Assembly: GCA_013178125.1 (NCBI GenBank)
Contig: JABLXJ010000007.1
Span: 1-64,000 of the forward strand
From: Bacillota bacterium
GTDB taxonomy: Bacteria; Bacillota; SHA-98; Ch115; JABLXJ01
Direction: 5' to 3'
Length of the DNA: 64,000 nt
A program made the translations under genes and the position numbers. The notes below the pieces were generated by a model, which saw only the letters and a program-made list of their open reading frames with translations, was not told the origin of the DNA and ran no database searches. Positions 7,815-40,250 of this stretch are shown here, piece by piece. Numbering within the stretch: the stretch's first letter is position 1; every line of letters starts with the position of its first letter.

Positions 7815-7832
7815 CTGCTTGTAATGTTTGTT

Positions 7833-12650: not shown

Positions 12651-12706
12651 CTTCTCCCCCCCTCTCACAGCTATGGGGCCAAGGCTATAGCGCTCCCACT
12701 ACACTT

Positions 12707-12764
12707 TTCCAGGACTTACGGTGTTGCGCGCCGTCCCCGGAGCGCAACACCGTAAGTCCTGGAA
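12707..12764 (-). terminator. 23-bp perfect hairpin downstream of solute-binding protein gene
   Basis: Arms 12707-12729 and 12742-12764 are perfectly complementary over 23 bp with a 12-nt loop (TCCGGGGACGGC on the minus strand). It is the hairpin part of repeat copy B and lies between the binding-protein gene and its permeases. Only a short A-rich tract follows and no U-run, so it more likely stabilises or attenuates the upstream transcript than ends it fully. This would give more binding protein than permease, as is usual. Confidence 0.6.
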
Positions 12765-12808
12765 CGTGCTGGTAAACTAGCACAAATCAAGGAAACTTCA
12801 CTTAGTAG
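12707..12808 (-). repeat. Dispersed repeat, copy B
   Basis: Second copy of the three-member repeat. On the minus strand it begins with CTAAGTGAAGTTTCC, continues with TTTGTGCTAGTTTACCAG and ends in the 23-bp hairpin. Compared with copy A the hairpin arms have different sequence (GGACTTACGG in place of GGGGGTTGCCGG) yet still pair, while GTGTTGCGC and the loop are shared. It starts about 27 nt after the binding-protein stop codon. Confidence 0.8.
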
Positions 12809-12835
12809 GTAACAACATTAGCATCCGTAACAGCC

Positions 12836-14119: not shown

Positions 14120-14272
14120 CACCCTTACACCTCGCCATCATAATATTTCATCATAATATCTTGATGTCTCGATAATATCTCGCCACATGGCTACTTTGCG
14201 CTCCACCCAACTTACCACCCAACTACTCGACTTACCCATATTACTAGCACTCGCCCCCCTGCAGCACCCCCC

Positions 14273-15283: not shown

Positions 15284-15339
15284 AGTAGTCCCTTACCTCC
15301 GTCATTCCTCTCTCCACAGCCCAATTAACAACCTAATTA

Positions 15340-15441
15340 CTAGATAGACGTCCATGCCGCCTTCAGCGGCACCAGCAGGGAATGAAAATGGCCTTAGCTG
15401 GGGTAATGTCTATTTTCTAGGTAGATAGTTGCTAGATAGAC
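15340..15441. repeat. 10-bp direct repeat flanking an 82-bp segment after the ROK gene
   Basis: CTAGATAGAC occurs at 15340-15349 and again at 15432-15441, where it includes the ROK stop codon. A diverged inverted version (GTCTATTTTCTAG) lies at about 15408-15420. The 82 bp between the direct copies contain a short hairpin GCCGCcttcaGCGGC and no gene. This could be the footprint of a small insertion or a simple duplication. Confidence 0.5.
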
Positions 15442-16622
15442 AGCAAACCCTGCTTCGCCGTCCTGCACGCAATCGATGCCGCGCCTATGAGGCCGGTATC
15501 CGCACCCATCTTCGAGAGCAGGATCTGTGGCCGGATCGGGGATATACGCTGCAACCTCTCTTTGACGGGTTGAAGCAGCACATCACCGGCATTTGCTATG
15601 CCGCCCCCGATCACCACCGCCTGTGGGCTCAACACGACAGAAATATTGATAATTCCGGCCGCAAGGTGATCCGCAACCTCCTCGACCAACCCTCGAGCTA
15701 TCTCATCCCCGGCTCGGGCAAGTTCAAATACCTCCTCAACCGTTGCGGGCGCAGTCTCTCCTCCACCGGCCCGCGTCCCCCAGAGCTCAGCCGCCCTCTT
15801 CAAGATACCATGAGCGGCCGTGAAGGTCTCGAGACACCCAAACCCCTCCGAGCTTTCACGCTTCATCCAGCTCAGATTGGTGATAGTATAACCAACCTCG
15901 CCAGCGGCGTAGGAATAACCCCTGTAGAGTTCACCGTTTATTATCACCCCACCGCCGACGCCTGTGCCAATAGCGATAAAGACGAAGTCGCTCATATCCT
16001 GGCCGGCGCCCCAATGCTTCTCGGCGAGCGCCGCCGCGTTAACATCATTTTCGACCACGACGGGTATCGCAAGCTCTTCGTAAAGCAGCCTCCTGAATGG
16101 TATGCTTACCCAGCCCATCTGGGGTGAGAGGGATACCTCACCCGTCTCAGGATGAACGACGCCAGGCACCGCGACGCCAACTGCCAGCACCTTCTCCTGT
16201 GGAATACCTGACTCGGCCATAAGGCCACGTACGGCCCTCGCGATGCCGGGCACGACCTCTGCACCGAAACCCAGTTCCTTTGTGGGGATCTTGCGTGTGT
16301 GCTGGAACCTGCCGCCAAGATCCGATATACCCATCTTGATATTCGTCCCGCCAGCATCGACCCCAACCACAAGCCCGGCCTCGGGGTTGAATTCGATCAT
16401 GATGGGCTTCCTCCCGCCTGTGGATTGCCCCATGCCAACCTCTCTGACGAGCCCTTTGGAGATAAGATGGTCGATTATCGAATATATAGTCGGTTCGCTT
16501 ATCTGCGTTATCCTGGATAGCTCAGCGCGCGATACCGGCCCCTGCCTCTCGATTACCTGGAGGACCAGATATCTATTGTTATCCCTTATGGTCGCGGGAG
16601 TCCCCGGCTCTAACTTGACCAT
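15432..16622 (-). CDS. ROK-family transcriptional regulator
   Basis: A 396-residue protein with an N-terminal winged helix-turn-helix (about 12-62: QGPVSRAELSRITQISEPTIYSIIDHL) and a ROK sugar-kinase-like domain (82-390) with the phosphate loop VGVDAGGTNIKMG, END motif (191-193) and GTGVGGG. ROK repressors of the NagC/XylR type bind a sugar or sugar phosphate and release DNA. The family zinc site, normally GExGH...CxCGxxGC, is degraded: GEVGY (Tyr245 for His) and SSEGFGCLE with only one Cys. It starts the gene array and is the likely regulator of the region. The 302-nt upstream gap holds CTTAG-N8-CTAAG (16768-16785) and a 14-bp tandem repeat (16715-16742). Confidence 0.9.
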   Translation of the reverse strand: MVKLEPGTPATIRDNNRYLVLQVIERQGPVSRAELSRITQISEPTIYSIIDHLISKGLVREVGMGQSTGGRKPIMIEFNPEAGLVVGVDAGGTNIKMGISDLGGRFQHTRKIPTKELGFGAEVVPGIARAVRGLMAESGIPQEKVLAVGVAVPGVVHPETGEVSLSPQMGWVSIPFRRLLYEELAIPVVVENDVNAAALAEKHWGAGQDMSDFVFIAIGTGVGGGVIINGELYRGYSYAAGEVGYTITNLSWMKRESSEGFGCLETFTAAHGILKRAAELWGTRAGGGETAPATVEEVFELARAGDEIARGLVEEVADHLAAGIINISVVLSPQAVVIGGGIANAGDVLLQPVKERLQRISPIRPQILLSKMGADTGLIGAASIACRTAKQGLLSI

Positions 16623-25085: not shown

Positions 25086-25355
25086 CTACTTGCTAACCGT
25101 CTGGGCTCCGGCCTTCGGAGCAACAAGGGTCCAAAGCCACGAGATAATCAGCGCGCCGATGATACCGGCGATGACGTTGTAGCCCTTTAGCATCCATCCC
25201 CAGTTACCCAGGATGACATCTCCGAGCCAGCTTCCAATCAGGCTGGCTATCAGGAGGGTAACCCAACCCCCACTTATTGCCTTGCCTTTAGCATACCATA
25301 CCGTCGCAATCCAGCTAATTACAAGTCCGACGATAACCAGGGCAAGCCAGTACAT
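25086..25355 (-). CDS. Small membrane protein, GlsB/YeaQ/YmgE-like
   Basis: An 89-residue protein with three hydrophobic helices (about 3-20, 31-50, 60-82) and Gly-rich turns: LVISWIATVWYAKGKAISGGWVTLLIASLIGSWLGD and VIAGIIGALIISWLW. This pattern resembles the transglycosylase-associated GlsB/YeaQ family of stress-related membrane proteins. It is convergent with the metallophosphoesterase gene. Function is not known; assignment is by hydropathy and Gly spacing only. Confidence 0.65.
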   Translation of the reverse strand: MYWLALVIVGLVISWIATVWYAKGKAISGGWVTLLIASLIGSWLGDVILGNWGWMLKGYNVIAGIIGALIISWLWTLVAPKAGAQTVSK

Positions 25356-26422
25356 TCAACTTACACCCCCTTTGCTTTCCGGCTTTCCGGTTCATCTGCT
25401 TCAATCTCATTCATCTGCTTCCATCTCGTTCCTCCAGGTCCCCCGGTACCCCGGTTCAACCACAAGCTTACGCCACAAGTTCATGCCACTTTATTTTCCT
25501 GTCCCCTGTGCCGTGTCTGCATCGTCTCAGGCCAGCCGGCTTGCGGGTCCCCAAACTCTTCTCACTGGTCGCAGTATTATAAATATTCGACGAGGTCTCG
25601 AGACTTTCCTGCTATTTTTCGCAAAACGCACGAATCGAGACCACGCCGATAGTCTTCCTGTAGCGAGAAGGTGGGACAGGCTGGCCGGAACCGGGCATTC
25701 TCTAACTGCAGCCCGCATAAGAATATAGAGTAAGACAGGAATAAGCATAAGGACTAAGCATAAAAGCAGGGACAAAAAAGTGACTTGCCTTAATGACCAT
25801 ATCCTGCCGATCTCGAGACGGGGGACCCAAGATAACGGGGGAACCGGAGGCGGGGGAGCTTGACTATGGTATATAGAGCCATTATAATTAAATTGGTCGA
25901 TACTTCTCCCAGGATTGCCATGTTTAGTTATCACTGACTTTGATCGCTCCGAGAGAAGTCTAAAAAAACTATAGTAGCTAATTATTAACTAACTACAAAA
26001 GCCAGCTTTTCGCCGTTCAGCGGGCAAAAGGGATCGAGTGCTTTCAGGTCCCTAAACTGATTACAAAATTTTATAGTATTCTCGCGCCCGTAGCTTTTGG
26101 CAGCCTTCTCGAACTCGACATAAACATGTAAGTGTAGATTCACATCCACGTGGAGAGCGCTAACGAAGAGGAAACGGGGATGAAGAGGCACCTGGGAGTA
26201 GGTTTCAAACCTTGCTCAAAGGTGCCCTTTTTGTTCTTAATTTGTTCTCAGAACTTTGTCCTTGAAACCCGTTTGTTCCTAATCGGGGCTCTAATATCGG
26301 GGCTATAACCCTTTAGCATGAATATTTCTACCTGGATTTGGATATCATTCGATTGCCGGGCAAATAGGATTTCACTCCATATTCCAATATAATGCAATTA
26401 AGGAAGATTGGGGGAATGCCGT
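25356..26422. other. 1.07-kb stretch without convincing genes
   Basis: Between the small membrane protein and the glycan operon no supported coding region was found. Two minus-strand frames (25527-25934 and 25985-26191) lack ribosome sites and family marks. A plus-strand hairpin with U-tail ends at 26232. AATTTGTTCTC/GTTCTTAATTT and CGGGGCT repeats occur at 26235-26310. A TATAAT box lies at 26388-26393, 30 nt before the first gene of the glycan operon, but no matching -35 was seen. Confidence 0.5.
26187..26232 (+). terminator. Two-stage hairpin with U-tract, plus strand
   Basis: GGCACCT (26187-26193) pairs with AGGTGCC (26220-26226); inside it GGTTTcAAACC (26201-26211) forms a second stem, and CTTTTT follows. 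This is a plausible rho-independent terminator, yet no plus-strand gene lies within 1.1 kb upstream. It may end an unrecognised small RNA or act as an attenuator ahead of the glycan operon. Confidence 0.6.
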
Positions 26423-27523
26423 GTGAAAGCCCTACTGCTTGCTGGAGGGCTCGGGACGAGGTTGCACCCGCTAACCTACAACCTGCCGAAGCCAATGGTT
26501 CCCGTAGCAAACCGTCCCTGGCTGGAGCATCTCCTCGGCCTCCTCAAGAGGCATAATATCTCGGAGGTTATCTGCAGTCTATGTTACCGTCCCGAGATCA
26601 TAATGAATTACTTCGGCGACGGCAGCGCCTTCGGGATACGAATGCAATACGTCGTCGAGAAAACTCCACTTGGGACGGGTGGGGCTATCCGGTTTGCGGA
26701 GCACCTTCTAGATGATACCTTTCTGGTTTTCAATGCTGATATAGTCACTGACCTGGACCTTACGTCCGTCGTGAATTTCCATAAACAGAACAAGGCAAGG
26801 GTGACGATCGCACTTACATGGGTTGACGATCCGACGGCCTACGGCGCCGTGGAGATGGACAGGAATGGCCGCATCCTGAAATTTATCGAAAAGCCGTCAA
26901 AAGACCAGATCACCACCAACTTCGTAAATGCCGGGGTTTATGTATTCGAACCCGATATCCTAGAGCGGATACCGAGAGGCCGGCCCGTATCCCTCGAGAG
27001 AGAAGTATATCCTTCCCTCCTCGATGAGGGCGTCCCGGTTTATGGTTACGGTTCCAGGTTCTACTGGATGGATCTAGGAACCCACAAACGATACCTGGCC
27101 CTCCACGCGGATATTTTCCAGGGCAAGCTCAACCTCGAGATCCAGGGCAAGAGGAACAACGCTGGCACCGCAACTGGCATCGCTACTGCAAATGATAACC
27201 CAGGCGGTGGTGCCATATCCCTGGGCGACCAGCGAGATCAGGTGATAATCGGGCGCGAGGCTCATGTGCATCCGACATCGAGGATCCATGGACCTGTGAT
27301 AATCGGGGACAGGTGCGTAGTGAACGCTGGCGCCGTAGTGGGGCCGATGACGGTGCTGGGTCCGGGCGTGGTGGTCGGGGAAGGAACCCACGTGAGGAAC
27401 AGCGTCATCTGGGCCGGGACGCGGATCGGCTCGCGGGCCCACCTAGACAGGGTGATCGTTGGCGAGAATTACACCGTGGAAGATGGGAGAGAGCTTCGAT
27501 CCATGGCTATCGCTGAGAGCTAA
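26423..27523 (+). CDS. NDP-sugar pyrophosphorylase (mannose-1-phosphate guanylyltransferase-like)
   Basis: Makes an NDP-sugar from a sugar-1-phosphate and NTP. The 366-residue protein has the signature ALLLAGGLGTRLHPLTYNLPKPMVPV at the start, then NADIVTD, the metal-binding Asp region, EKPS (sugar-binding) and FVNAGVYVFEPDIL. After a Gly/Asn-rich linker (about 240-275) comes a left-handed beta-helix domain (280-350, VIIGREAHVHPTSRIHGPVIIG). GTG 26423 has GGGGGA 7 nt upstream. First gene of an operon with GT4, glycosidase, BON, GH94 and phosphohexomutase genes. GDP-mannose is the most likely product by family, but other bases cannot be excluded. Confidence 0.9.
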   Translation: MKALLLAGGLGTRLHPLTYNLPKPMVPVANRPWLEHLLGLLKRHNISEVICSLCYRPEIIMNYFGDGSAFGIRMQYVVEKTPLGTGGAIRFAEHLLDDTFLVFNADIVTDLDLTSVVNFHKQNKARVTIALTWVDDPTAYGAVEMDRNGRILKFIEKPSKDQITTNFVNAGVYVFEPDILERIPRGRPVSLEREVYPSLLDEGVPVYGYGSRFYWMDLGTHKRYLALHADIFQGKLNLEIQGKRNNAGTATGIATANDNPGGGAISLGDQRDQVIIGREAHVHPTSRIHGPVIIGDRCVVNAGAVVGPMTVLGPGVVVGEGTHVRNSVIWAGTRIGSRAHLDRVIVGENYTVEDGRELRSMAIAES

Positions 27524-27537
27524 TTGGAGGTGATAGT

Positions 27538-28710
27538 GTGAACATTATCTACCTGACGACATATCCCCCGCGAAAATGCGGAATAGCGATATTTGCCGCT
27601 GATCTCATTGAAGCGATGATCGCTCGAAACGGGCCTGAGTCATCAAAGGTCATAGCTATAAGCGATGTGCAAGAATACCTCTACGGCCCCGAGGTTGTCG
27701 CGGAGATATCCCAGATGAGGAGGCAGGATTATGTAAAGGCGGCCCTGCTGGTCAACGAATCAGATGCCGACCTTGTTCACGTTCAACACGAATACGGCAT
27801 TTTCGGCGGGAAGTTCGGGGCCTACCTTTTAGACTTCCTTGCGAACGTGAAAAAGCCAGTCGTCGTGACCCTTCACACGGTTCAAATAAATCCTGAACGC
27901 GAAATCGTAAACGTCTTGCGGGAAATAGCGAGGTTTAGCAGGGTCCTTATTGTCATGGCAGAAAAGGCCCGCGATTCCTTGGCAAAGGTGTATGGCATCG
28001 ACCCCAAAAAGATCACGGTTATCCCGCATGGCGTCCCAAACATGCGGCCCATGCGTAGAGAGGCTTTGAAGTCAAAATACGACCTCAACGGGCGCAAAGT
28101 CATCTCAACCCTGGGATTGATAAACCCGGGGAAGGGCATAGAATATGCTATCCAGTCCCTCCCGGCCGTCGTAAAGAAACACCCCGATGTCGTTTACCTG
28201 GTCATCGGGCAGACGCACCCCGTGGTTCAACGCCAGATGGGCGAGGCGTATCGCATGTCGCTATATAAGATGATAACCAGGCTGGACCTGCAGCATCACG
28301 TGAGATTCATTGATGAGTTCCTGACAAAGGACAAACTCCTTGAATATCTCGCGCTTACGGACATCTACCTTACACCATACATAAACAAGGAGCAGATCAC
28401 CAGCGGGACGCTTGCCTACGCGGTAGCGCTCGGCAAGGCGATCGTCTCGACGCCGTACTTCTATGCCGAGGAAATGCTCGCGGGCAACCGGGGTCTCCTT
28501 GCCGATTTCAAGGATCCAGAGTCTATAGCCGGATGTATACTGGATATCCTGAATACGCCCGGCAAACAGCGGGAGCTCGAACGCAAAACCCGCGCTTTTG
28601 GGCGCAACATGAGCTGGCCCTCTGTCGCGGGGCTCCACGAGATTCTATTCCAGAACATAATGGCCAAGAAAGTGCACCTGGGGACAGCTGCTGCAACTAT
28701 ATCAGAATAA
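27538..28710 (+). CDS. Glycosyltransferase, GT4 type
   Basis: A 390-residue GT-B fold enzyme. N-terminal half starts MNIIYLTTYPPRKCGIAIFAADL, with DLVHVQHEYGIFGG and VVVTLHT; C-terminal half carries VISTLGLINPGKGIEYAIQSL and the sugar-nucleotide site (YLTPYINKEQITSGTLAYAVALGKAIVSTPY) where GT4 retaining enzymes hold an ExFGxxxxE-like motif. The motif here is atypical, ending in KEQITSG. GTG start with TTGGAGGTGA. Starts 15 nt after the pyrophosphorylase, its likely donor supplier. Confidence 0.9.
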   Translation: MNIIYLTTYPPRKCGIAIFAADLIEAMIARNGPESSKVIAISDVQEYLYGPEVVAEISQMRRQDYVKAALLVNESDADLVHVQHEYGIFGGKFGAYLLDFLANVKKPVVVTLHTVQINPEREIVNVLREIARFSRVLIVMAEKARDSLAKVYGIDPKKITVIPHGVPNMRPMRREALKSKYDLNGRKVISTLGLINPGKGIEYAIQSLPAVVKKHPDVVYLVIGQTHPVVQRQMGEAYRMSLYKMITRLDLQHHVRFIDEFLTKDKLLEYLALTDIYLTPYINKEQITSGTLAYAVALGKAIVSTPYFYAEEMLAGNRGLLADFKDPESIAGCILDILNTPGKQRELERKTRAFGRNMSWPSVAGLHEILFQNIMAKKVHLGTAAATISE

Positions 28711-28788
28711 TATCAGGATAACCCTTGCTGCCCGCCGTGAGCAGCACCAGCAGAAGAGAGTCTCTCTGGGAAGGTTGGTGACCTTTAA

Positions 28789-29874
28789 ATGAGAAGACAG
28801 GCGGCAGAATACGCCAGCCTGCCGATGCCGAAACTCAACCTTGACCATCTCTTCAGATTGACCGATTGTACGGGGATGATACAACACTCTGTATTTTCAA
28901 TACCCGATTACGAAAGCGGTTATACTACCGATGATAACGCCCGAGCTTTGAGGGCGGCATTACAATTGTATGATCTGACAGGCGATACCAGGCTGCTCGA
29001 GCTGGCTGTGAGGTACATCGGTTTCCTGGCTTACACGCAACGCGAAACAGGGAAGTGGCGCAACTTTGTGGGGTATACGCGCGAATTTCTCGAGGAAGAG
29101 GGATCGGAGGATTCCTTCGGTCGCGCCGTTCATGCCTGTAGCTTCGCAGCGCGCACACGAGCGCACGGCGGCATCGCGCGGCTGGCGAACCAGCTCTTGG
29201 AGCGAGCTCTCCCGTGGGTGTCGAGCCTGAGGGCCCCGAGGGCTATGGCCTTTTGCATCGCGGGGCTGGCCGAGCTGCACTATGAGCATCCAGACCCGAA
29301 GATATATAGTTTAATGTGCACGCTGGCGGATTCCCTGGTTGAACTTTACCGCAGTGCCTCTGACGCAAAGAAGAAGTGGCATTGGTTCGAAGACAGGTTG
29401 ACCTATTGTAACGCCGCATTTTCAAAGGCCTTCTTTCTTGCATATATGGCGAGCGAGAAACATATATACCTCAAGATCGCCAGGGAGAGCCTCGACTTCC
29501 TCTCAAGTGCAATGTTCAAGGGTGGCAAGCTCAAGGTGATAGGGAACCACGGGTGGTGGCTCAAAGGGGCGAGGCCGGCGGAATTTGACGAGCAGCCAGT
29601 CGACGCAGGGCTTATGGTGGAGGCCTTCCTGGCAGGTTATTCAGCCACAGAGGATTCTTCTTACTATTCTCAAGCGATAGACGCCTTCGCCTGGTTTCTG
29701 GGCAGGAATTCCATAGGGGTGCACCTTTATGACCCAGGCACGGGGGGATGCTTCGATGGCATAACTCCAGACGGGGCGAATCTCAACCAGGGAGCTGAAT
29801 CCCTACTGGCCTACATGCTTGCCTACCTGAAACTACGTGAAATGGAGGTGAAGCGAAATGAAGCTGCAGGATGA
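28789..29874 (+). CDS. Putative six-hairpin glycosidase / glycosyltransferase-associated protein
   Basis: A 361-residue cytoplasmic protein with the repeated helix pattern of an (alpha/alpha)6 barrel. SGYTTDDNARALRAALQLYDLTGD near residue 44 is a motif seen in proteins fused or linked to GT4 enzymes in glycan clusters. Other conserved-looking parts: KWRNFVGYTREFLEEEGSEDSFGRAVHA, KKKWHWFEDRLTYCNA and GWWLKGARPAEFDEQPVDAGLMVEAF, rich in acidic and aromatic residues suited to sugar binding. No signal peptide. No catalytic pair can be assigned. Overlaps the BON gene by 17 nt. Confidence 0.75.
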   Translation: MRRQAAEYASLPMPKLNLDHLFRLTDCTGMIQHSVFSIPDYESGYTTDDNARALRAALQLYDLTGDTRLLELAVRYIGFLAYTQRETGKWRNFVGYTREFLEEEGSEDSFGRAVHACSFAARTRAHGGIARLANQLLERALPWVSSLRAPRAMAFCIAGLAELHYEHPDPKIYSLMCTLADSLVELYRSASDAKKKWHWFEDRLTYCNAAFSKAFFLAYMASEKHIYLKIARESLDFLSSAMFKGGKLKVIGNHGWWLKGARPAEFDEQPVDAGLMVEAFLAGYSATEDSSYYSQAIDAFAWFLGRNSIGVHLYDPGTGGCFDGITPDGANLNQGAESLLAYMLAYLKLREMEVKRNEAAG

Positions 29875-30091
29875 TTTGCTCTGCAAGCGAATCGGCTCTG
29901 CCATCAAGGAGGATGGTTTCCTGAGCCACTGTCCGATTACAGTCAACTGCCTCGACGGAACCGCCTTCCTTCGTGGCAAGGTCGAGACCCCTGAACAGAG
30001 GATAGAGGCTGAGCGCATCGCGCGTCACACCTATGGTGTTAGAAGCGTTGTAAACGAGCTCGGTTTCTATAGACACAGCCTGCGTGGTTAG
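29858..30091 (+). CDS. BON-domain protein
   Basis: A 77-residue protein made of a single BON domain: helix (LLCKRIGSAIKEDGF), strand (PITVNCLDGTAFLRGKVETPEQRIEAERIARHTYGVRSVVNEL). BON domains usually bind membranes or sugars in exported proteins, but this one has no signal peptide. It overlaps the gene before it by 17 nt and the GTG-initiated frame after it by 8 nt, with GGAGGTG upstream of the ATG, so it is fully inside the glycan operon. It may be an adaptor for one of the enzymes; this is inference. Confidence 0.85.
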   Translation: MKLQDDLLCKRIGSAIKEDGFLSHCPITVNCLDGTAFLRGKVETPEQRIEAERIARHTYGVRSVVNELGFYRHSLRG

Positions 30092-30104
30092 GAGGGATCT
30101 TTCC

Positions 30105-32483
30105 TTGAATTACGGCAATTTCTCCAGCGACGGACGGGAATTTATTATCACCACCCCGGCCACACCGCGCCCCTGGGCAAACTACCTGACGAATGGCAGG
30201 TACTGTGCCCTGATCTCACATACAGGCGGAGGCTACTCCTTCGTTGGAAGCTCGGGTTATAACCGCATAACCCGGGCTTACCCCGGAGAAATGACCATGA
30301 CCGACCGGCCGGGGCGATATGTTTACGTGCGCGACGAGGCTACCGGCGAATTCTTTAGCATCAACTGGCAGCCGGTGCAGCATCCCTATGAAACCTGGGA
30401 GTGCCGGCACGGGATGGGCTACACGCAAATTAGCTCAAAAAACGCCGGCATCGAGGGGCAAATCATCTTTTTCGTGCCCCTGGATGATGACGTCGAAATC
30501 TGGCTAGTTTCCCTCAAAAACACAACGAGCCAGCCGCGGCGTTTGAGCGTCTTCACCTACGTGGAATGGTGCCTCGGGAGCTATGGCTTTGACCTCATTG
30601 AGACGAGCTTCGCCAGCCTTTTCAAGTCCGTTGGGTTCGATGAGGGCGTCGGCGCCATCATAGCCAAGATGGGGCTATGGGACGTGGGACACCGTGCCGC
30701 AAAACCCCACATGCCCTGGAACCGCCATGCCTTTATTGCGACAAGCCTTCCCGTGGTCGGATTCGACGGGCTGCGGGAGGAGTTTGTCGGCCGCTACCGT
30801 TCCCTGGCGAACCCAGTTGTGGTTGAGCGGGGGCAATGCGCAAACTCCGATGGCTTCGGCCGGGACGCCGTCGGCGTTCTGCAGGGCAGGGTCGAGCTAT
30901 CGCCGGGCCAGGAACAGGCCTTCACCATCATAATGGGGGCGCCTGATGACGAAAAGGCCATCGGGTCGCTCGCCGGGAAATTCCAGGATACCTCGAACGC
31001 CACTGAGGAGCTTGACCGCCTGAAATCTTTCTGGGATAATTACCTTAACCGTGTGGTGGTCTCAACCCTTGATCCTGATTTCGACCTTTCGGTAAATATA
31101 TGGAATAAATACCAATCATGGGTGACGTTTAACTGGTCCCGCATGAGCTCCTACTATATAGGAGGGGGCTCCATGTTCGGGCTGCGCGATACCTCCCAGG
31201 ACTTGCTGGGCGTCCTTCCCAACGATCCCCCGCTTGCCAGGGCCAAGCTCAGGGAGGTCCTAAGGCATCAGTTCCGCGACGGGGGTACGCTCCACAACTG
31301 GGACCCCATAACGGATACCGGGCCCCGTACCGGCCACTCCGACGATGCGCTGTGGCTCGTCCTTGCAACCGCCGAATACCTGAAGGAAACGGGGGATTTC
31401 AATTTCCTCGAGGAGCTCGTGCCCTACTACGACGGGACAGAGGGCACGGTGTTCGATCATCTCAGGAAATCTATAGAGTTTACCATCTTCCATACGAGCC
31501 CCCGGGGCATCCCCTTGATGGTTGCCGGCGATTGGAATGACGGCCTCGACCAGGTTGGCGAGGAAGGCAAGGGCGAAAGCGTGATGACCGCCGAGTTCCT
31601 GTGCTGGATGCTCAAGGAAATGATCGACATCTGCGAGTTAAGGAATGACCAGGCCCTGGTGAAGGATTACAGGGCCCAGAGGGACAAGCTGATCGCCAAG
31701 ATCAATGAGTTCTATTGGGATGGCGCCTGGTACGCCCGGGGGACCACGGATGAGGGTGAGCTCTTCGGGAGCTCGAGGAATAAATATGGTCGCATCTACT
31801 TAAATGCCCAGAGCTGGGCAGTCCTCTCGGGCGCAGCGCCGCCCGAACGGGCGCTCGCATGCATGGAGGCGGCCCGGAAACACCTAGACACCAGGTACGG
31901 GCCGGCGATCTTCCTGCCGGCATACGCCGAGCCGGACCCGCACATAGGTATCATAACCATGTTCAGCCCCGGGGTCAAGGAGAACGGCACGATATTCAAC
32001 CACCCCGTCTGCTGGGCCGTTATAGCCGAGGCTATGCTGGGCAGGGGTGAACGCGCTTACGACCTTTTCAAGCGGTCCTCCTTCATCACCCGGGGGAAGG
32101 ACCCTGATACATATAAAGTCGAGCCCTACATTTACTGCGAATACGTCTACGGGCCGGACTCTAAATTCTTCGGCCAGGGCGAGTTCAGCTGGACCACGGG
32201 GACTGCCGCGTGGATGTTAAAGGCGTGTCTCGACTGGATTCTGGGGGTCAGGCCGGAATACGGGGGCTTGAGGGTTGACCCCGTTATCCCCCCTGACTGG
32301 GAGGGATTCACGATCCGGCGCCCATTTCGAAAAGCTACATATGATATAGAGGTAGCAAATCCCGAGCGCGTGTCGCGGGGCGTAAAACAGGTGGTAATGG
32401 ATGGCAAACCCTTCGAGGGCAACCTGCTCCCGCCCGTTTCCGACCGGAAAACCCACAAGGTCCAGGTCACCATGGGAAGGTAG
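30105..32483 (+). CDS. GH94-type glycoside phosphorylase
   Basis: A 792-residue protein of the GH94 (formerly GT36) group, which splits beta-linked glucosides or N-acetylglucosaminides with phosphate. It begins NYGNFSSDGREFIITTPATPRPWANYL, the typical start, with an N-terminal beta-sandwich (to about 300) and (alpha/alpha)6 barrel. GGSMFGLRDTSQDLLGV, QFRDGGTLHNWDP and AGDWNDGLDQVG (catalytic Asp at about 476) match cellobiose/chitobiose phosphorylases. TTG 30105 has AGGAGG 9 nt upstream and fits the family start; a GTG 7 codons earlier is less likely. Acceptor and linkage are unknown. With the phosphohexomutase downstream, the phosphorolysed sugar-1-phosphate could be fed into metabolism. Confidence 0.92.
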   Translation: MNYGNFSSDGREFIITTPATPRPWANYLTNGRYCALISHTGGGYSFVGSSGYNRITRAYPGEMTMTDRPGRYVYVRDEATGEFFSINWQPVQHPYETWECRHGMGYTQISSKNAGIEGQIIFFVPLDDDVEIWLVSLKNTTSQPRRLSVFTYVEWCLGSYGFDLIETSFASLFKSVGFDEGVGAIIAKMGLWDVGHRAAKPHMPWNRHAFIATSLPVVGFDGLREEFVGRYRSLANPVVVERGQCANSDGFGRDAVGVLQGRVELSPGQEQAFTIIMGAPDDEKAIGSLAGKFQDTSNATEELDRLKSFWDNYLNRVVVSTLDPDFDLSVNIWNKYQSWVTFNWSRMSSYYIGGGSMFGLRDTSQDLLGVLPNDPPLARAKLREVLRHQFRDGGTLHNWDPITDTGPRTGHSDDALWLVLATAEYLKETGDFNFLEELVPYYDGTEGTVFDHLRKSIEFTIFHTSPRGIPLMVAGDWNDGLDQVGEEGKGESVMTAEFLCWMLKEMIDICELRNDQALVKDYRAQRDKLIAKINEFYWDGAWYARGTTDEGELFGSSRNKYGRIYLNAQSWAVLSGAAPPERALACMEAARKHLDTRYGPAIFLPAYAEPDPHIGIITMFSPGVKENGTIFNHPVCWAVIAEAMLGRGERAYDLFKRSSFITRGKDPDTYKVEPYIYCEYVYGPDSKFFGQGEFSWTTGTAAWMLKACLDWILGVRPEYGGLRVDPVIPPDWEGFTIRRPFRKATYDIEVANPERVSRGVKQVVMDGKPFEGNLLPPVSDRKTHKVQVTMGR

Positions 32484-32534
32484 CCTTATAAGCGTGTGGC
32501 TATGGGAAAGAAGTCTTGCAAGGGGGTAGAAGCA

Positions 32535-33926
32535 TTGGCAGCGGTAGAAGTAAGGATAAACCCCGAGATATTCAGGGAATACGACATCCGTGGTGTAGCC
32601 GAGAGAGACCTGACATCCGATGTAGTATATACCCTGGGGCAGGCGATCGGGACCTTCCTTCAGAATGCAGGAGAGAAGGAGGCCATAGTCGGGAGGGACA
32701 ACAGGATATCGTCACCGAGGCTCCGCGATGCCCTGGTGGACGGGATCACATCGACGGGTTGCAACGTGCTTGACATAGGGGTCGTCATAACCCCCGCATT
32801 TTATTACGCCCGGATTCTCTACGGCATAAACGGCGGGGCTATGATAACGGCGAGCCATAACCCACCTGAATTCAATGGATTCAAGGTGGCTTTCGGCCCG
32901 GGGACGCTCTATGGCGAGCAGATCCAGGACCTGCGTAAGCTGGCTGAGAGCGGGGATTTCGCAAGAGATGGGCGCGGGCGCGTGTCAACCGCCGGCCCAA
33001 GGGACGCGTACATATCAATGCTTGCCGGGAAGATCCAGCTCGGGCCGCGCCGCCTCAAAGTCGCCGTGGACTGCGGCAACGGGACGGCATCGTTTTTCGC
33101 CGGCGACCTCATGCACAAGCTCGGCTGCGATGTGATCCCACTCTACTGCGAATCCGACCCCGGGTTCCCAAACCACTTCCCCGACCCGGTCAGGCCCCAA
33201 AACCTGGGCGCCCTCATCGACGCTGTGCGATCGCAAGGCGCGGACCTGGGCGTGGCCTATGACGGGGACGGAGACCGGATCGGCGTGGTGGATGAAAAGG
33301 GCGACATCATCTGGGGGGATCGCCTCATGGTGCTCTTCTGGCGGGAGATCCTGCCCAAGCACCCCGGGGCGACGGCCATCATCGAGGTCAAGTGCTCCCA
33401 GGCCCTCGTTGAGGAGGTTGAGCGCCTCGGGGGAAAGCCGATGTTTTACAGGACCGGCCACTCCCTGATAAAAGCCAAGATGCGCGAGATCGGAGCCGTG
33501 TTTACCGGCGAGATGTCCGGGCACATGTTCTTCGCCGATGAGTATTATGGGTTTGACGACGCCCTCTACGCGTCAGCAAGGCTCCTAAGGATCCTGTCCA
33601 ACACTGATGCGACACTCTCGGAACTGCTGGGCGACGTCCCGAAGTACCCTGCGACGCCCGAGACCAGGGTGCCCTGCCCCGACCGCGAGAAGTTCAACGT
33701 CGTGCGCTCCATCCAGGAGCACTTTAAGGCCCTTTACCCCGTCATAGACATCGATGGCGCCCGCATCATCTTCCCCAGCGGGTGGGGCCTGGTCAGGGCA
33801 TCCAATACCGGCCCCGAGCTGGTTGTCCGCGCCGAGGCTAAAACCGGGGATGCCCTGGACAAGATCAAAAAGGAGATCGAGGATGCCCTGCGGAGCTTCC
33901 CGGCAGTGGGTGCAGTGCGCTGGTGA
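32535..33926 (+). CDS. Phosphomannomutase/phosphoglucomutase
   Basis: Interconverts hexose 1- and 6-phosphates. A 463-residue alpha-D-phosphohexomutase with all four loops: FREYDIRG start, active Ser in TASHNPPEFNGFK (about residue 107), metal loop YDGDGDRIGVVD, sugar-specificity loop GEMSGHMFF and phosphate loop RASNTGPELVVR. The GEMSGH motif matches enzymes that use mannose and glucose. TTG 32535 with AGGGGG 8 nt upstream was chosen; GTG 32496 is an in-frame alternative. Last gene of the operon; it ends 12 nt from the convergent pstB stop with no terminator visible. Confidence 0.92.
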   Translation: MAAVEVRINPEIFREYDIRGVAERDLTSDVVYTLGQAIGTFLQNAGEKEAIVGRDNRISSPRLRDALVDGITSTGCNVLDIGVVITPAFYYARILYGINGGAMITASHNPPEFNGFKVAFGPGTLYGEQIQDLRKLAESGDFARDGRGRVSTAGPRDAYISMLAGKIQLGPRRLKVAVDCGNGTASFFAGDLMHKLGCDVIPLYCESDPGFPNHFPDPVRPQNLGALIDAVRSQGADLGVAYDGDGDRIGVVDEKGDIIWGDRLMVLFWREILPKHPGATAIIEVKCSQALVEEVERLGGKPMFYRTGHSLIKAKMREIGAVFTGEMSGHMFFADEYYGFDDALYASARLLRILSNTDATLSELLGDVPKYPATPETRVPCPDREKFNVVRSIQEHFKALYPVIDIDGARIIFPSGWGLVRASNTGPELVVRAEAKTGDALDKIKKEIEDALRSFPAVGAVRW

Positions 33927-33937: not shown

Positions 33938-34696
33938 TTATCCGAAGCGCCCGCTGATATAATCCTCGGTCCTCTTATCTTTGGGGTTGGTGAATATCTC
34001 CGTGGTGAGGCCGTACTCAATCATCTGTCCATTCAAGAAGAATGCGGTATACTCCGCGACCCGGGCCGCCTGCTGCATGTTATGCGTAACCATCAGGATG
34101 GTGTACCTGGACTTCAGGTCGGCGATGAGCTCCTCGACCTTCAGGGTGGAGGCCGGATCCAGGGCAGAACACGGTTCGTCCATCAGCAGCACCTCCGGCT
34201 CCACTGCCAGGGCACGGGCAATGCATAGCCGCTGCTGCTGGCCTCCGGATAGATTGTAGGGACTTTCGTGAAGCCGGTCCTTAACCTCGTCCCATAACGC
34301 CGCCATTCGCAGGCTTTTCTCCACTATATCCTCCATCCTTGGACCCGGCCTCAGCCCGTTTACCCGCACCCCTGCGGCTACATTGTTGAAGATGGACATC
34401 GTCGAAAAGGGGTTGGGCTTCTGAAACACCATCCCTATCCTGTGGCGGAGTTCGGCCAGGTCCATATTATCACTGTAAATATCCTGGCCATCCAGCATTA
34501 CCTTGCCCTTTGTGCGGGTTCCCGGAAGCAGTTCGTGGAGGCGATTGAGGCAGCGGATCAGGGTGGACTTGCCGCACCCTGACGGGCCGATGATCGCGGT
34601 AACCTGGTGAAGGGGCACCGGCAACGTCACGTCTTTCACTGCTTGATTCTTACCATACCAGGCGCTAAATTCCTCTACAAGCAACTTTACGTTCAT
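33938..34696 (-). CDS. pstB: Phosphate ABC transporter ATP-binding protein
   Basis: The ATPase of the high-affinity phosphate importer, 252 residues. Walker [31 protein letters not shown] (Q-loop), [19 protein letters not shown] (signature) and [13 protein letters not shown] (Walker B) are typical of PstB, as is FNGxxxE-like [10 protein letters not shown] near the end. ATG overlaps the pstA stop by 4 nt. No phoU gene follows; instead the operon is convergent with the phosphohexomutase gene. Confidence 0.96.
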
Positions 34697-35547
34697 CCCC
34701 TATTCCCCCCGCTGGCTCGCCTACCCGCCACCCGGGCAGCCATGCTTGTAACCAGAACCAAGGCCAGCAGCACCAGAGCTGCACCCCAGGCCAACCGGTG
34801 CAGGTCCTCATAAGGCGTGGTGGCATAGGTGTAAATGTATACCGGAAGGGAGGCTATACGCTGGTCAAGCCCGGTGTGCCAGTAGCGGCTGCTGAGGGCG
34901 GTAAAGAGTAACGGCGCGGTTTCCCCGGCGATCCTGGCCACCGCCAGCATAACACCTGTAATGATCCCGCCGGCCGCGCTGCGCAGCACCACGCTAACGA
35001 CGGTTCGCCACTGGGGCGCGCCCAGCGCCAGCGAGGCCTCCCGGAGGCTATTAGGTACCAGCTTCAACATTTCCTCGGTGGTCCTGGTCACCAGGGGAAG
35101 CATGATAATCGCCAGGGCCACCCCTCCGGCGATGGCGGAATAACGCTTCATGGCCACGACAATGGTACCGTAAACCGCTATCCCAACGATGATGGAGGGG
35201 ATCCCGGTCATCACATCGCAGATAAATCTCACGGTCCAGGCCAAACGGCCCCGACCAAACTCGGCCAGATAGATGCCTGCCAGGATCCCTATAGGGATGC
35301 CCATGGCCGATGCCAGGCCTACGAGGATCATGGTCCCAACAATTGCGTTAGCCATCCCGCCCCCGGGTTCCCCCACCGGCTTTGGGAGCTTGGTGAAAAA
35401 ATCCCAGCTAATGGCGGACAATCCCTTGGCAGAAACATAGATTAAAATGCTCGCAAGCGGGATAAGCGCCACCACTGTAGCAAGCACCGACAGGACCCCC
35501 ATGGTCCGGTCGACTATCCTTCTCCGCTGATTGCGCCCTATTCTCAC
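34693..35547 (-). CDS. pstA: Phosphate ABC transporter permease
   Basis: A 284-residue membrane protein with six helices; [30 protein letters not shown] and the coupling segment [27 protein letters not shown] are PstA marks. GTG 35547 overlaps the pstC stop by 4 nt (GTGA), so a longer frame from 35586 that would lie inside pstC was not used. Partner of pstC in the phosphate channel. Confidence 0.95.
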
Positions 35548-36488
35548 TCCCTGGTCACCCCCTGGGGCACCCTGGCCACTCGCCATACCAGCAGCCGGGC
35601 CATGATGTTCAATAGCAGCGTAATCACGAAAAGTATCAATCCTGCAGCTACCAGTGCCGATAAGTGTAAATCGTTGAAGGCCTCACTGAACTCGTTGGCG
35701 ATGATACTGGCAATGGTCTGGGCGAGTTCAAAGAGCGATGGAAAGATTTGCGGGCGGTTGCCGATAACCATTGTGACCGCCATGGTTTCGCCCAGGGCCC
35801 TCCCTAGTCCCAGGATTGCCGCTCCCAGGATACCCGACCGTCCGTAAGGCAAGACCACCATTCGTATGGTCTCCCATCTGGTAGCCCCCAGGGCCAGCAT
35901 GGCCTCCTGCTGGGAGCGGGGCACTACCAGCAGCACCTCCCTGGAAACCGCGGAAATAGTAGGCGTGATCATGATTGCAAGGATGATACCGGCAGCCAGC
36001 ATGCCGAAACCGTAGGGTGCACCCTTAAAGAGGGGCAAGAAACCAAGGGCACTCCCGAGGACCGGTTCTACAGACGACCGCACCCAGGGCACAAGGACGA
36101 ATACCCCCCACAAGCCATATACCACGCTGGGAATAGCTGCTAGAAGCTCCACAAGGAATGATACAGGGCCTCGTAACCAGTGAGGAGCCAGCTGCGTCAG
36201 GTAGATGGCGATACCCAGGCTCAGCGGGAGCGCTATCGCAAGGGCAATCAATGATGACACCACCGTGCCGTAAACCAGCGGCAAAGCGCCGAATACTCCA
36301 TGGACAGGGTCCCAGCGGGAGCCCAGGGCAAATCCCGGGCCAAACTTTGTGAAGGTGAGCTGCGCCCCCTCCACAAGCACCCAGAGGATGGCCAGGACTA
36401 CGCCCACCAGGCTCAAGGCGGCAAGGTAGGCGAAACCGCGGAAGGCGATATCCCCTTCTAACCACGCTTTATAGCTTTTCTTTTCCAT
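35544..36488 (-). CDS. pstC: Phosphate ABC transporter permease
   Basis: A 314-residue permease, six helices, with LPLSLGIAIYLTQLAPHWLRGPVSFLVELLAAIPSVVYGLWG in two pieces and the coupling loop RSQQEAMLALGATRWETIRMVVLP. ATG 36488 has GGAGG about 9 nt upstream (a TTG just before it is also in frame). Separated from pstS by a 470-nt gap that holds a MITE-like insertion and a stem-loop, unlike the tight spacing of pstC-pstA-pstB. Confidence 0.95.
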   Translation of the reverse strand: MEKKSYKAWLEGDIAFRGFAYLAALSLVGVVLAILWVLVEGAQLTFTKFGPGFALGSRWDPVHGVFGALPLVYGTVVSSLIALAIALPLSLGIAIYLTQLAPHWLRGPVSFLVELLAAIPSVVYGLWGVFVLVPWVRSSVEPVLGSALGFLPLFKGAPYGFGMLAAGIILAIMITPTISAVSREVLLVVPRSQQEAMLALGATRWETIRMVVLPYGRSGILGAAILGLGRALGETMAVTMVIGNRPQIFPSLFELAQTIASIIANEFSEAFNDLHLSALVAAGLILFVITLLLNIMARLLVWRVARVPQGVTRE

Positions 36489-36606
36489 CAAAAAGCATCC
36501 TCCCAGAAATCATCCTCCGCACTGTTTTTGAGCTTCCGAATTTCGAGCTTTCGAACGAAACGAAATCTAGCAGCGTAGCTGTGTAACTGTGTAAACAAAC
36601 GGGCAT

Positions 36607-36644
36607 AGGGGAAGCCCCGGGCGATTCCGGGATCCTCTTCCCCT
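36607..36644 (-). terminator. Stem-loop between pstS and pstC
   Basis: AGGGGAAG (36607-36614) pairs with CTTCCCCT (36637-36644), with an inner CCGG pair. There is no U-tract. Its place between pstS and pstC fits partial termination or RNA protection that keeps PstS in excess over the permeases. TATATCTGATTG-type short repeats lie next to it at 36671-36722. Confidence 0.45.
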
Positions 36645-36790
36645 TCAAGCCATACGGTTATACGGTCTATATCTTATATCTATATCTGGCTGTCTATATC
36701 TGATTGTCCATATCTGATTCCTTGATTCCATATGATCATATCAACAGCTTTAATAGCTCTAAAGTAGTAGCTCTAACGTCAACCAGTTAA

Positions 36791-36944
36791 TCATTGTTAC
36801 TGAGGTTTTAACATAAGGTGCCATAGAATGCCAGCTTCGAAATCTCGTATGGCAATATACTTGGCAGGATGGCCGCAACAAACCACCAACTATCAGGCAA
36901 CTGGCATCCTTTGGCACTTTATGTCAAAACCTTAGTCATTGTTA
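36791..36944. mobile_element. MITE-like element, 136 bp, with 9-bp target duplication
   Basis: Terminal inverted repeats of 35 nt (36800-36834 and 36901-36935) start CTGAGGTTTTAACATAA on the left and CTAAGGTTTTGACATAA on the right (read inward), matching at about 29 of 35 positions. The element is flanked on both sides by the identical 9-bp sequence TCATTGTTA (36791-36799 and 36936-36944), the mark of transposition. The 66-nt centre has no open frame. A transposase supplied from elsewhere would be needed. It sits 14 nt beyond the end of pstS, so pstS is intact but pstS-pstC linkage is stretched. Families giving 8-9 bp duplications include IS256, IS1 and IS1595; the family here cannot be named. 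Confidence 0.85.
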
Positions 36945-36958
36945 TTGGTTTGTTTATT

Positions 36959-38026
36959 TTATTTATGGAGAATCTCGCCCCTGTAATTAATCTGCTTGAT
37001 CTTCTTCTCGGCCAGTTTCACTACGTTGTCAGGCAGCGGGGCGTAAAGCAGCTCCTTGGCAAATTTTTCACCGTCGTGAATGGCCCACCACAGGAATTTG
37101 ACCAGTTCGGTACCCTTTGCTTTATCCTTTTGATCCTTGTAAACCAGCAGGTAGGTATAGCCAGCGATAGGGTAGGCGTCCTCGCCAGGGGCGTTGACGA
37201 TGGAAACCCGCATATCTTCCGGCATGTTGGAGACTGCACCTGCAGCAGCAGCGGTGGTGGTCTCGAGGGTTGGCTCTACAAATTTGCCAGCCCGGTTCTT
37301 CAGGAAGGCATATGGCAAACCATTTTGAATGACATAGGCCAGTTCGACGTAGCCGATAGCACCCGGAGTTTGCTTAACAGCGCCGGATACGCCCTCATTA
37401 CCCTTGGCCCCGATACCGGTAGGCCATTCTACAGATGTGCCTTTCCCAACTTTTGTCTTCCAGGTGCTGCTGACATTGCTCAGGTAATCCGTGAAGATGT
37501 TGGTGGTGCCGCTTCCGTCGGAGCGGTGCACGACGACAATCGGCTGAGCTGGTAGATCAACGCCGGGGTTGATGGAGGTAATCCTCTTATCGCTCCACTT
37601 CGTTATCTCGCCCATGAAGATGTCGGCCAAAATGTCGGGTGTCAGCTTGAGACCGGTCTTAACGCCCTTCAAGTTGTAAGTAATTACTACAGCGCCCATT
37701 ACAGTTGGGATGTGGAAAATCTGCCCCGGGGCCTTGGCCAGCTGTTCGTCTGTCATTGGGGCATCACTCCCAGCAAAGTCCACCGTTTGTTCAAGGATGC
37801 CCCTGATGCCGCCGCCACTGCCTATGGACTGGTAATCAATAGCCACGTTTGGATCGACCTTGCGGTACTCATCAAGCCACTTGCTGTACAAGGGGTATGG
37901 GAACGAAGCGCCAGCCCCGTTCAGGGCCACGGTTCGCGCCTCGATCTGCACAACGGGGCCGACCAGCACTCCCACCAAGAGGATCGACATAAGCAGGACC
38001 AACCATTTGTTTCTCGTGTTGAGCAC
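36959..38026 (-). CDS. pstS: Phosphate ABC transporter substrate-binding protein
   Basis: A 355-residue phosphate receptor. Signal peptide at 1-31 (WLVLLMSILLVGVLVGPVVQIEA). NGAGASFPYPLYSKWLDEY, SIGSGGGIRGILEQTVDFAGSDAPM and VVHRSDGSGTTNIFTDYLS contain the phosphate-binding loops (Ser/Thr/Arg/Asp) of PstS. No lipobox Cys. GTG start with GGAGGAGGG 8 nt upstream. Heads the pst cluster below a PHO-box-like array. Confidence 0.96.
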   Translation of the reverse strand: MLNTRNKWLVLLMSILLVGVLVGPVVQIEARTVALNGAGASFPYPLYSKWLDEYRKVDPNVAIDYQSIGSGGGIRGILEQTVDFAGSDAPMTDEQLAKAPGQIFHIPTVMGAVVITYNLKGVKTGLKLTPDILADIFMGEITKWSDKRITSINPGVDLPAQPIVVVHRSDGSGTTNIFTDYLSNVSSTWKTKVGKGTSVEWPTGIGAKGNEGVSGAVKQTPGAIGYVELAYVIQNGLPYAFLKNRAGKFVEPTLETTTAAAAGAVSNMPEDMRVSIVNAPGEDAYPIAGYTYLLVYKDQKDKAKGTELVKFLWWAIHDGEKFAKELLYAPLPDNVVKLAEKKIKQINYRGEILHK

Positions 38027-38336: not shown

Positions 38337-40250
38337 TTGCTTAAACAGCCCCAACAACTCCTTAGACAAGCACCGACTACAGGTAGAGGCATCATCATTA
38401 TCTCCATTCTCTCCATCCTCCTACTCATCCTTATGTCCACCCTGCACCTACCCCTATCACTGGGCGACCCAGCCGACGCGCAGGAATCCCAGCCTTTAAA
38501 CCCTTTACAGGCAGGGGCGGGCGCCCCCACAGCCGCGGCCGTTGCGCGCGGCATCTGGATCGACGCGAAGAGCATCCCTTCCGACCCAGATGCTATCCGG
38601 GCCATGGTCAGGCGCCTGAAGGATGCCAACTTCAATATGATCTTCCCCGAGGTCCTCTACCAGGGCTCCACTATCTTTTTCTCAGGGACCGCCGCCTCTG
38701 AGGGCATACAGCCCCAGATGCCGAGGTTCTCAGGGATGGATCCTCTCGCGATCCTGATCGATGAAGCCCACAGGTTCTCTATCGAGGTCCATGCCTGGTT
38801 CAGCATGTTCTATGTCGGGCTCAATACCCCGGGACCGATTCTGGGAAGGCACCCCGAGTGGGCTGCGATCAACAGGCAGGGTGAGATAGGTTACAGGCAA
38901 GGGGTAAACAGGTTCTACTGGGTATGCCCGATGCATCCCGGCGTCCGCGAATACTACACCAGGCTCGTTCAGGAGGTCGCCCGGAAGTATGATATAGACG
39001 GGGTCCACCTCGACTACATCAGGTACCCCGACCCCATACAGGGGGACTTCTGCTATAGCCCGGAGCATCGCGAGGACTTCAAGGCAAAATATGGTGTCGA
39101 CCCGCTCGACCTGGATCCCGAAGCCGACCCGGAGCGATATAAGCTGTGGAACAAGGTGAGGGCGGATGCTGTAACCGAGGTGGTCAGGTCCATAGCCGGG
39201 GAACTGAGACAATCAAAGCCCGGCGCGAGGCTCTCGTGCGCGATCGCGCCCCGGGGGATGCCCATCGAGCTGAACTCGGGCCTTCTCCAGGATTGGCCGG
39301 AGTGGGCGAGCAGGGGCTATGTCGATATGCTCATTCCAATGACATATAGCTCGAGGCCGAACGAGATGAAGGCGCTCTTGACCTGGTCGCAGTACTTCTC
39401 CCGGGGGGCGGTCCCGGTCTATGCAGGTATCCAGGGGTTTGGCCTCTCCGGCCCCGAGGGGTTGCTGGCCCAGGTGAATTCCGCGCTCGAACAGGGCGCA
39501 GGCGGTGTTGTCATCTTTGCCTATCCCTACCTCACCGATGAAAGCCTGGCCGCCCTGAAGGCCGGTCCATTTGCGACCGCAACCGCAGAGGTAGGCACTC
39601 CAGGTAATCTTCCCCAGAACCGTCCCTTTTCTGAAGCCTTTGAACGCCAGGGAGAGCCGCCGCGCATGATACAAGCAATTCGAGTCGCCACCCCTCCTGT
39701 CATCGACGGTATGCTCGACGATGAGGCATGGCAGCTGGCCGGGTGGCAGTCGGGCTTCAAGTTGATCACCGGTGAGGGAGACGCCCGGGAGCAAACCTCC
39801 GTCGCTGTATGTTACGACGATTCCAGGCTCTACATCGCCCTCAGAATGGCGGATGAGAGGCCGGATCTCATCAGCGCGTCGGTCACATCACGGGATGGAC
39901 CTGTATTCTACGATGACTCTGTGGAGGTCTTCCTCGACCCGGCTCATACTCACAGCTTTTATTACCACTTTGCCGTGAATCTCTTCGGGACCCAGTACGA
40001 CAGCTACTCGCGAACAGGCCCATCCTGGAACGGGACATGGCGCGCAAGGGCTTCCACAACAGGAGATGGCTGGGTCATGGAGATGGCCATACCCATCGAT
40101 GAGATTGCGAAATCTCGTCCCACCGCCGGGACCATATGGGGCGCAAATTTCAACAGGACGATGCTCCGGCTGCAGGAATTCAGCGGCTGGGCCTTTACGC
40201 CGGGCACGTTCCACGCACCGTCGTTCTTCGGCGATATAATATTTGAATAA
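38337..40250 (+). CDS. Secreted glycoside-hydrolase-like protein (DUF187/GHL10) with CBM9-like domain
   Basis: A 637-residue exported protein. An N-terminal hydrophobic segment (about 18-43) serves as signal or anchor. Residues about 68-420 form a TIM-barrel like the DUF187/GH10-like family: ARGIWIDAKSIPSDPDAIRAMV, VHAWFSMFYVGLN, HPEWAAINRQGE, DIDGVHLDYIRYP and VDMLIPMTYSS. Residues about 440-637 match a family-9-like carbohydrate-binding domain (PVIDGMLDDEAWQLAGW, FYDDSVEVFLDPAHTHSFYYHFAVNLFG). Homologues in Firmicutes act at the envelope on peptidoglycan or other glycans. TTG start with GAGGTG 9 nt upstream. Divergent from pstS. Confidence 0.85.
   Translation: MLKQPQQLLRQAPTTGRGIIIISILSILLLILMSTLHLPLSLGDPADAQESQPLNPLQAGAGAPTAAAVARGIWIDAKSIPSDPDAIRAMVRRLKDANFNMIFPEVLYQGSTIFFSGTAASEGIQPQMPRFSGMDPLAILIDEAHRFSIEVHAWFSMFYVGLNTPGPILGRHPEWAAINRQGEIGYRQGVNRFYWVCPMHPGVREYYTRLVQEVARKYDIDGVHLDYIRYPDPIQGDFCYSPEHREDFKAKYGVDPLDLDPEADPERYKLWNKVRADAVTEVVRSIAGELRQSKPGARLSCAIAPRGMPIELNSGLLQDWPEWASRGYVDMLIPMTYSSRPNEMKALLTWSQYFSRGAVPVYAGIQGFGLSGPEGLLAQVNSALEQGAGGVVIFAYPYLTDESLAALKAGPFATATAEVGTPGNLPQNRPFSEAFERQGEPPRMIQAIRVATPPVIDGMLDDEAWQLAGWQSGFKLITGEGDAREQTSVAVCYDDSRLYIALRMADERPDLISASVTSRDGPVFYDDSVEVFLDPAHTHSFYYHFAVNLFGTQYDSYSRTGPSWNGTWRARASTTGDGWVMEMAIPIDEIAKSRPTAGTIWGANFNRTMLRLQEFSGWAFTPGTFHAPSFFGDIIFE

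Follow-up and report, generated by a model that had tools for sequence, protein, structure and literature searches.

Phosphorylase genes set among genes for nucleotide-sugar synthesis are known from Thermoanaerobacter, where the cluster Teth514_1785-1796 encodes two beta-1,2-mannoside phosphorylases of glycoside hydrolase family 130 (GH130), a mannose-1-phosphate guanylyltransferase, a family 4 glycosyltransferase (GT4) and a hypothetical protein; ABC transporter genes and a GH5 are also present, and the phosphorylases were proposed to feed GDP-mannose synthesis (Chiku et al. 2014, PMC4264767). Here we describe an operon from a 64,000-nucleotide (nt) stretch of a Bacillota genome (contig JABLXJ010000007.1), referred to throughout as the window. 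Six plus-strand genes (26423-33926) encode in order a sugar-1-phosphate nucleotidylyltransferase, a GT4, an (alpha/alpha)6 'six-hairpin' protein, a BON-domain protein, a GH94 phosphorylase and a phosphoglucomutase/phosphomannomutase (PGM/PMM), at intergenic distances of 14, 78, -17, 13 and 12 nt. An earlier note on this DNA had read the genes as joining nucleoside diphosphate (NDP)-sugar supply, glycosyl transfer and phosphorolysis; all six stand in the stated order, and Pfam confirms their families. The likeness to Thermoanaerobacter lies in phosphorylase genes placed beside those for a mannose-1-phosphate guanylyltransferase and a GT4, and hypothetical protein 1785 may, to judge from the layout, be the counterpart of the (alpha/alpha)6 gene. 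In contrast to the window, that cluster has GH130 enzymes acting on beta-1,2-mannosides, ABC transporters and a GH5, and no GH94 or BON gene is listed for it. GH130 is absent from the window operon, and the only GH130 of the genome above the cut-off lies on another contig. The earlier note had also suggested a new synthesis-recycling cycle; layouts of this kind already have precedents in GH130 loci, and the Thermoanaerobacter cluster (PMC4264767) follows a similar logic. The distinctive element of the window operon is its BON-GH94 cassette.

The GT4 and (alpha/alpha)6 genes form a widespread core, in which the place of GH130 is here taken by the BON-GH94 cassette. About a quarter of the sampled genomes of the phylum (74 of 299) encode a homologue of the (alpha/alpha)6 protein. 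We compared 41 related loci, selected for their similarity either to the (alpha/alpha)6 protein or to the GH94, and in every one a GT4 homologue lies directly beside the (alpha/alpha)6 gene; the two are fused in seven. A nucleotidylyltransferase homologue is found near the core at 15 loci and a ManC-type one at 4, while PGM homologues encoded on the strand of the core are found at 14. GH130 proteins lie within about 5-6 kb of the core at 18 loci, on both strands (the opposite one in 4), either standalone or as the C-terminal part of a protein of ~1200 amino acids (aa), and GH94 is near the core at 4. A unit of nucleotidylyltransferase, GT4 and (alpha/alpha)6 protein is common to the window and many GH130 loci. 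At L060, L062, L063, L064, L066, L067 and L081 we observed a protein of ~1000-1250 aa whose C-terminal domain is a GH130 (confirmed by Pfam in two); its N-terminal part has no Pfam match and carries a 'VIGIPFYNE' motif, which we take to resemble GT81-type transferases. A synthase-phosphorylase fusion is possible.

The BON gene lies directly 5' of the GH94 gene in the genus of the window (L050/L090), in another genome of the same order (G002, L059), in G287 (L070) and in a metagenome-assembled genome (MAG) of Thermaerobacter (L091). The pair is also present, without the GT4 core, in G034 (L123). These counts come from a collection that holds one genome for the order of G287 and one for the class of G034, and wider sampling of 398 phylum genomes gave no further BON-GH94 case. 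The order GT4, six-hairpin protein, BON, GH94, for which the earlier note had proposed a search, recurs with its BON gene in relatives down to 39-61% identity. All six genes are under purifying selection when the window is compared with a same-genus MAG, the ratio of nonsynonymous to synonymous rates (dN/dS) being 0.03-0.12. The BON gene is the most constrained (dN/dS 0.025, with 3 nonsynonymous against 24 synonymous differences in this pair), a value that includes a short stretch overlapping the upstream gene. Because order and BON gene recur in relatives and the latter is under strong purifying selection, the six-gene arrangement is not a product of chance. At L159 (G390; 3213-8041, minus strand) two GH94 genes stand in tandem, one of which shares 42% identity with that of the window, and there is no BON gene.

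The window protein is the sole GH94 match in its genome and is predicted to be a glycoside phosphorylase: it has the catalytic and supersandwich domains, the catalytic Asp (codon 31539-31541) and the phosphate-binding Arg, His and Thr-Gly. Of the catalytic, phosphate and -1 residues listed for the cellobiose phosphorylase (CBP) CgCBP (PMC5501786), Arg351, Arg367, Asp368, Trp488, the catalytic Asp490, Glu659, Asn660, Phe664, His666, Thr731 and Gly732 are matched, and the Tyr653 position is Phe. The fold, the catalytic Asp and all listed -1/phosphate residues, with the same Tyr653 substitution, are likewise shared with CtCBP (3qde), whereas Glu649 of CBP is replaced by Ile. The differences from CtCBP extend to the acceptor side. 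In CBP, the loop N495-E509 closes subsites +2/+3 (PMC7471185), and Arg343/Arg362 fills +2 in chitobiose phosphorylase (ChBP) and CBP, where beta-1,2-oligoglucan phosphorylase has small residues instead (PMC5309861). Residue comparison with CtCBP and VpChBP found no such loop in the window GH94, and the arginine position is Gly/Ser in every BON-linked clade member covering the region. Since the loop and arginine that close +2/+3 are lost, the substrate is likely to be a chain of at least three units rather than a disaccharide, which points to a predicted activity on oligosaccharides.

Phylogeny places the five full-length BON-linked GH94s in one clade (support 100/100), separate from the reference cellobiose and chitobiose phosphorylases, in a tree of 46 rows with a midpoint root, reference sequences taken over from alignments, and a chitobiose phosphorylase reference with 32 residues missing. 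The sister group, comprising cyclic beta-1,2-glucan synthase GH94 domains and standalone GH94s, contains the nearest sampled relatives, in which the catalytic loop is likewise short and subsite +2 has small residues; one standalone relative, in G162, adjoins a PF10091 'glycoamylase' protein. Three better-known identities were rejected. An ordinary cellobiose phosphorylase is contradicted by the absent loop, the Arg362 replacement and the separate clade, and a chitobiose phosphorylase by the lack of grouping with VpChBP and of Arg at the Arg343 position. Cyclic beta-1,2-glucan synthase is a multidomain protein of ~2800 aa, whereas the window protein is a single enzyme of 792 aa with GH94 domains only, no synthase domain, no membrane part and no hydrophobic segment.

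This kinship bears on whether GH94 might work mainly as a synthase, polymerising hexose-1-phosphate onto a primer made by the GT4 into a storage or osmoprotective beta-glucan. GH94 enzymes catalyse reversible reactions, the sister clade holds the synthase domains just described, and the +2 site is open as in beta-1,2-oligoglucan phosphorylase; cytosolic phosphate, however, normally favours phosphorolysis, there is no branching or export gene, and a glycogen synthase-family gene lies elsewhere in the genome. We consider this explanation improbable.

The setting of the gene bears on a second explanation, the main rival, in which an imported beta-oligosaccharide is salvaged by GH94 to hexose-1-phosphate and then NDP-hexose for the GT4, whose product would not be the GH94 substrate. 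Such a route is published for the related Thermoanaerobacter GH130 cluster with its ABC transporters and GH5 (PMC4264767), and SBP_bac_1-type ABC importer sets with a ROK regulator lie ~10-25 kb upstream in the window, although on the opposite strand and distant. GH94s outside the BON clade adjoin ABC sugar importers in the sampled loci, as do the standalone relatives examined; in contrast, no importer was recognised in the clusters of the BON-GH94 loci examined, that of the window included, and their setting is biosynthetic. We rate salvage of imported sugar as rather unlikely. The earlier note had named a GH94 acting only on imported cellobiose as a reason to drop its proposal; the locus does not look like an ordinary cellobiose-import locus.

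The BON protein belongs to PF04972 (49.8 bits against a gathering cut-off of 27), and its model (predicted local distance difference test score, pLDDT, 89) has the alpha-beta-beta-alpha-beta fold of the family in an H-E-E-H-E order; Foldseek matched it best to DolP and OsmY and more weakly to Kbp. The ribosome-binding site of its gene, GGAGGTGA, is conserved in relatives. Although the BON fold is common to all of these, the window protein is a single bare BON domain without signal peptide, second BON domain or LysM, and its gene, unlike theirs, is coupled to a phosphorylase gene. An exported protein of OsmY/DolP type was rejected on its 77-aa length, its one BON domain and the lack of a hydrophobic N-terminus. 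A BON domain without export signal had been called unusual by the earlier note; the missing signal peptide stands, and the case is not unique, as a signal sequence is likewise missing from E. coli Kbp (PMC7806268). Kbp is described as a cytoplasmic K+ sensor in a title within the reference list of that paper, and its K+ is held by backbone carbonyls in the BON domain (PMC9481166), so that binding leaves no signature in the sequence. By analogy a cytoplasmic BON protein would be unusual with a precedent in Kbp, although Pfam found no LysM domain in the window protein, unlike Kbp. Because the pairing is constant even without the GT4 core, the data suggest that BON function is tied to GH94. We think it improbable, but worth stating, that BON is a dedicated cytoplasmic regulatory subunit of GH94 responding to K+ or osmotic state, with the beta-oligosaccharide as a phosphate-recycled osmolyte or reserve. 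A literature search joining BON, phosphorylase, glycosyltransferase and operon returned nothing relevant by title. Matches to the BON domain, at least six of them, also lie in an 874-aa open frame elsewhere in the window's own genome (G000:C2:54466-55842).

The (alpha/alpha)6 protein has no assigned family; in an alignment of 35 members D26, D48-D49, D108, D267, D323 and E337 are invariant, whereas no His is. Profile search found YPO2471 (7tem; 6e-23), then weakly 2-epimerases and GH76. Foldseek gave the same ranking with an AlphaFold model of modest confidence (predicted template modelling score 0.76, pLDDT 67, from a three-sequence alignment). The AGE/cellobiose 2-epimerase family uses two catalytic histidines; as no His is invariant here, an epimerase mechanism is unlikely, and this role was rejected despite the similar fold. 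GH76 alpha-1,6-mannanases have an adjacent catalytic Asp-Asp pair, to which the invariant D48-D49 may correspond; the Pfam GH76 score is below cut-off. The protein may have a hydrolase-like or a transferase-assisting role.

The nucleotidylyltransferase matched best, among NCBIfam models, mannose-1-phosphate guanylyltransferase (NF052502, 311 bits, under its cut-off of 440) and, in the PDB, a UTP-glucose-1-phosphate uridylyltransferase (8x7s, 7e-57), with mannose-1-phosphate guanylyltransferases at 4e-52. It is predicted to be like one or other of these enzymes, with mannose and glucose both as possible sugars. The best PDB matches of the GT4 are PimA mannosyltransferases (3e-07). The operon might also be part of a pathway for the cell envelope or an exopolysaccharide, in which the GT4 adds sugar to an envelope precursor and GH94 trims side products: GT4, nucleotidylyltransferase and PGM/PMM genes are frequent in loci of that type, and the weak similarity to PimA would suit it. 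Yet no flippase, polymerase, initiating transferase or exporter was found among the six genes and annotated neighbours, a simple hydropathy scan showed neither an apparent signal peptide nor an apparent transmembrane segment in the six products, and phosphorylases recur near the core. We rate the envelope explanation as a shade less probable even than a GH94 synthase. The earlier note had likewise seen no exporter or flippase in the cluster, which holds for the six genes, and the locus does not look like the exopolysaccharide fragment that it had named as a refutation.

We tentatively favour, at a little under even chances, an intracellular cycle in which a short beta-linked oligosaccharide or glycoside is synthesised and phosphorolysed. 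Hexose phosphate would be turned into NDP-hexose by PGM/PMM and the nucleotidylyltransferase, and from NDP-hexose the GT4, with its constant (alpha/alpha)6 partner, would transfer hexose to a cytosolic acceptor. GH94 would take off terminal residues with phosphate, or add them under other conditions, and the hexose-1-phosphate released would re-enter the nucleotidylyltransferase/mutase pool without ATP. BON would assist GH94 as a small accessory protein in the cytoplasm, acting perhaps as scaffold or sensor. Known GH94 enzymes have glucose or N-acetylglucosamine at -1, and by family precedent the donor sugar is probably glucose, mannose also being possible. What we infer comprises every activity, the sugar, the direction of the cycle, the roles of the (alpha/alpha)6 and BON proteins and a physical BON-GH94 interaction. 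A parallel in concept is the intracellular beta-1,2-mannan reserve of Leishmania, mannogen, mentioned in PMC4264767; the likeness stops at an intracellular beta-glycan reserve, Leishmania being a eukaryote that uses mannose and has no GH94.

Several observations weigh against the proposed cycle. The GH130-linked relatives point rather to mannose, as does the nucleotidylyltransferase, and the donor and phosphorylase sugars may not match. The papers searched gave no activity for the GT4 or (alpha/alpha)6 family, and the glycogen synthase-family gene counts here too. On the (alpha/alpha)6 tree the loci with GH94 do not group together (4 changes, of which well-supported branches force at least 3), and in G003, another member of the order, the core is present but GH94 gave no match at E<=1e-100; GH94 is therefore not essential to the core, relative to which the cassette has undergone more than one gain or loss. 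Movement of GH94 with one core lineage is ruled out by this scatter.

Features of the operon and the evidence for each
Feature	Position	Strand	Evidence
Sugar-1-phosphate nucleotidylyltransferase with C-terminal hexapeptide repeats	26423..27523	+	Pfam NTP_transferase 176 bits, hexapeptide
GT4 glycosyltransferase (GT-B), cytosolic	27538..28710	+	Pfam Glycos_transf_1 and Glyco_transf_4
(alpha/alpha)6 'six-hairpin' protein	28789..29874	+	Weak C5-epim_C/GH76/GH88 Pfam matches, typical of the (alpha/alpha)6 fold
BON protein, 77 aa, single domain	29858..30091	+	PF04972 E=4e-13; 17-nt overlap with upstream gene
GH94 glycoside phosphorylase, 792 aa (predicted)	30105..32483	+	PF17167 416 bits, supersandwich PF06165 257 bits
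Phosphoglucomutase/phosphomannomutase	32496..33926	+	Pfam PGM_PMM I-IV; NCBIfam PgmG 483 bits, cut-off of 600 not reached
Candidate promoter-like site TTGACT-17-TATAAT (11 of 12)	25860..25888	+	~535 nt 5' of first gene

We placed the GH94 start at the TTG at 30105 rather than at GTG 30084, which gives the longest open reading frame, because an AGGAGGG Shine-Dalgarno sequence overlaps the BON stop codon and homologues start correspondingly in L059, L070 and L091. The promoter-like site is no more than a candidate, since such sites occur in the region at chance level; the 116 nt around it are 85% conserved in the same-genus relative. No riboswitch or other known RNA was matched in Rfam 5' of the operon. 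The ~1.3 kb between a metallophosphatase gene and the operon (25086-26400) is partly conserved (73-85%) in the same-genus MAG and contains a small hydrophobic open reading frame (25527-25934, minus strand). Further 5', the minus-strand region 771-16622 holds three genes for SBP_bac_1 solute-binding proteins, two of them accompanied by both permeases, as well as genes for a ROK regulator, a URO-D family protein and a ceramidase-like protein. On the 3' side, pst-type phosphate transporter genes (33938-38026, minus strand; an ATPase, two permeases and a PstS-like protein) run towards the operon, the facing stop codons being only 11 nt apart, and similar genes lie 3' of the operon in the same-genus L050. 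Beyond them, 38337-40250 encodes a GHL10 glycosyl hydrolase-like protein with a CBM9 domain.

Our analysis defines a widespread GT4-(alpha/alpha)6 core that has no characterised product and carries either a GH130 or a BON-GH94 phosphorylase. The substrate of the BON-linked GH94 would reveal the product of this core, and would test for a phosphate-recycled intracellular oligosaccharide in bacteria. A cytoplasmic BON domain would gain a testable partner and, if BON were a K+ or osmotic switch of GH94, this would be both a new form of phosphorylase control and a new function for the BON domain.

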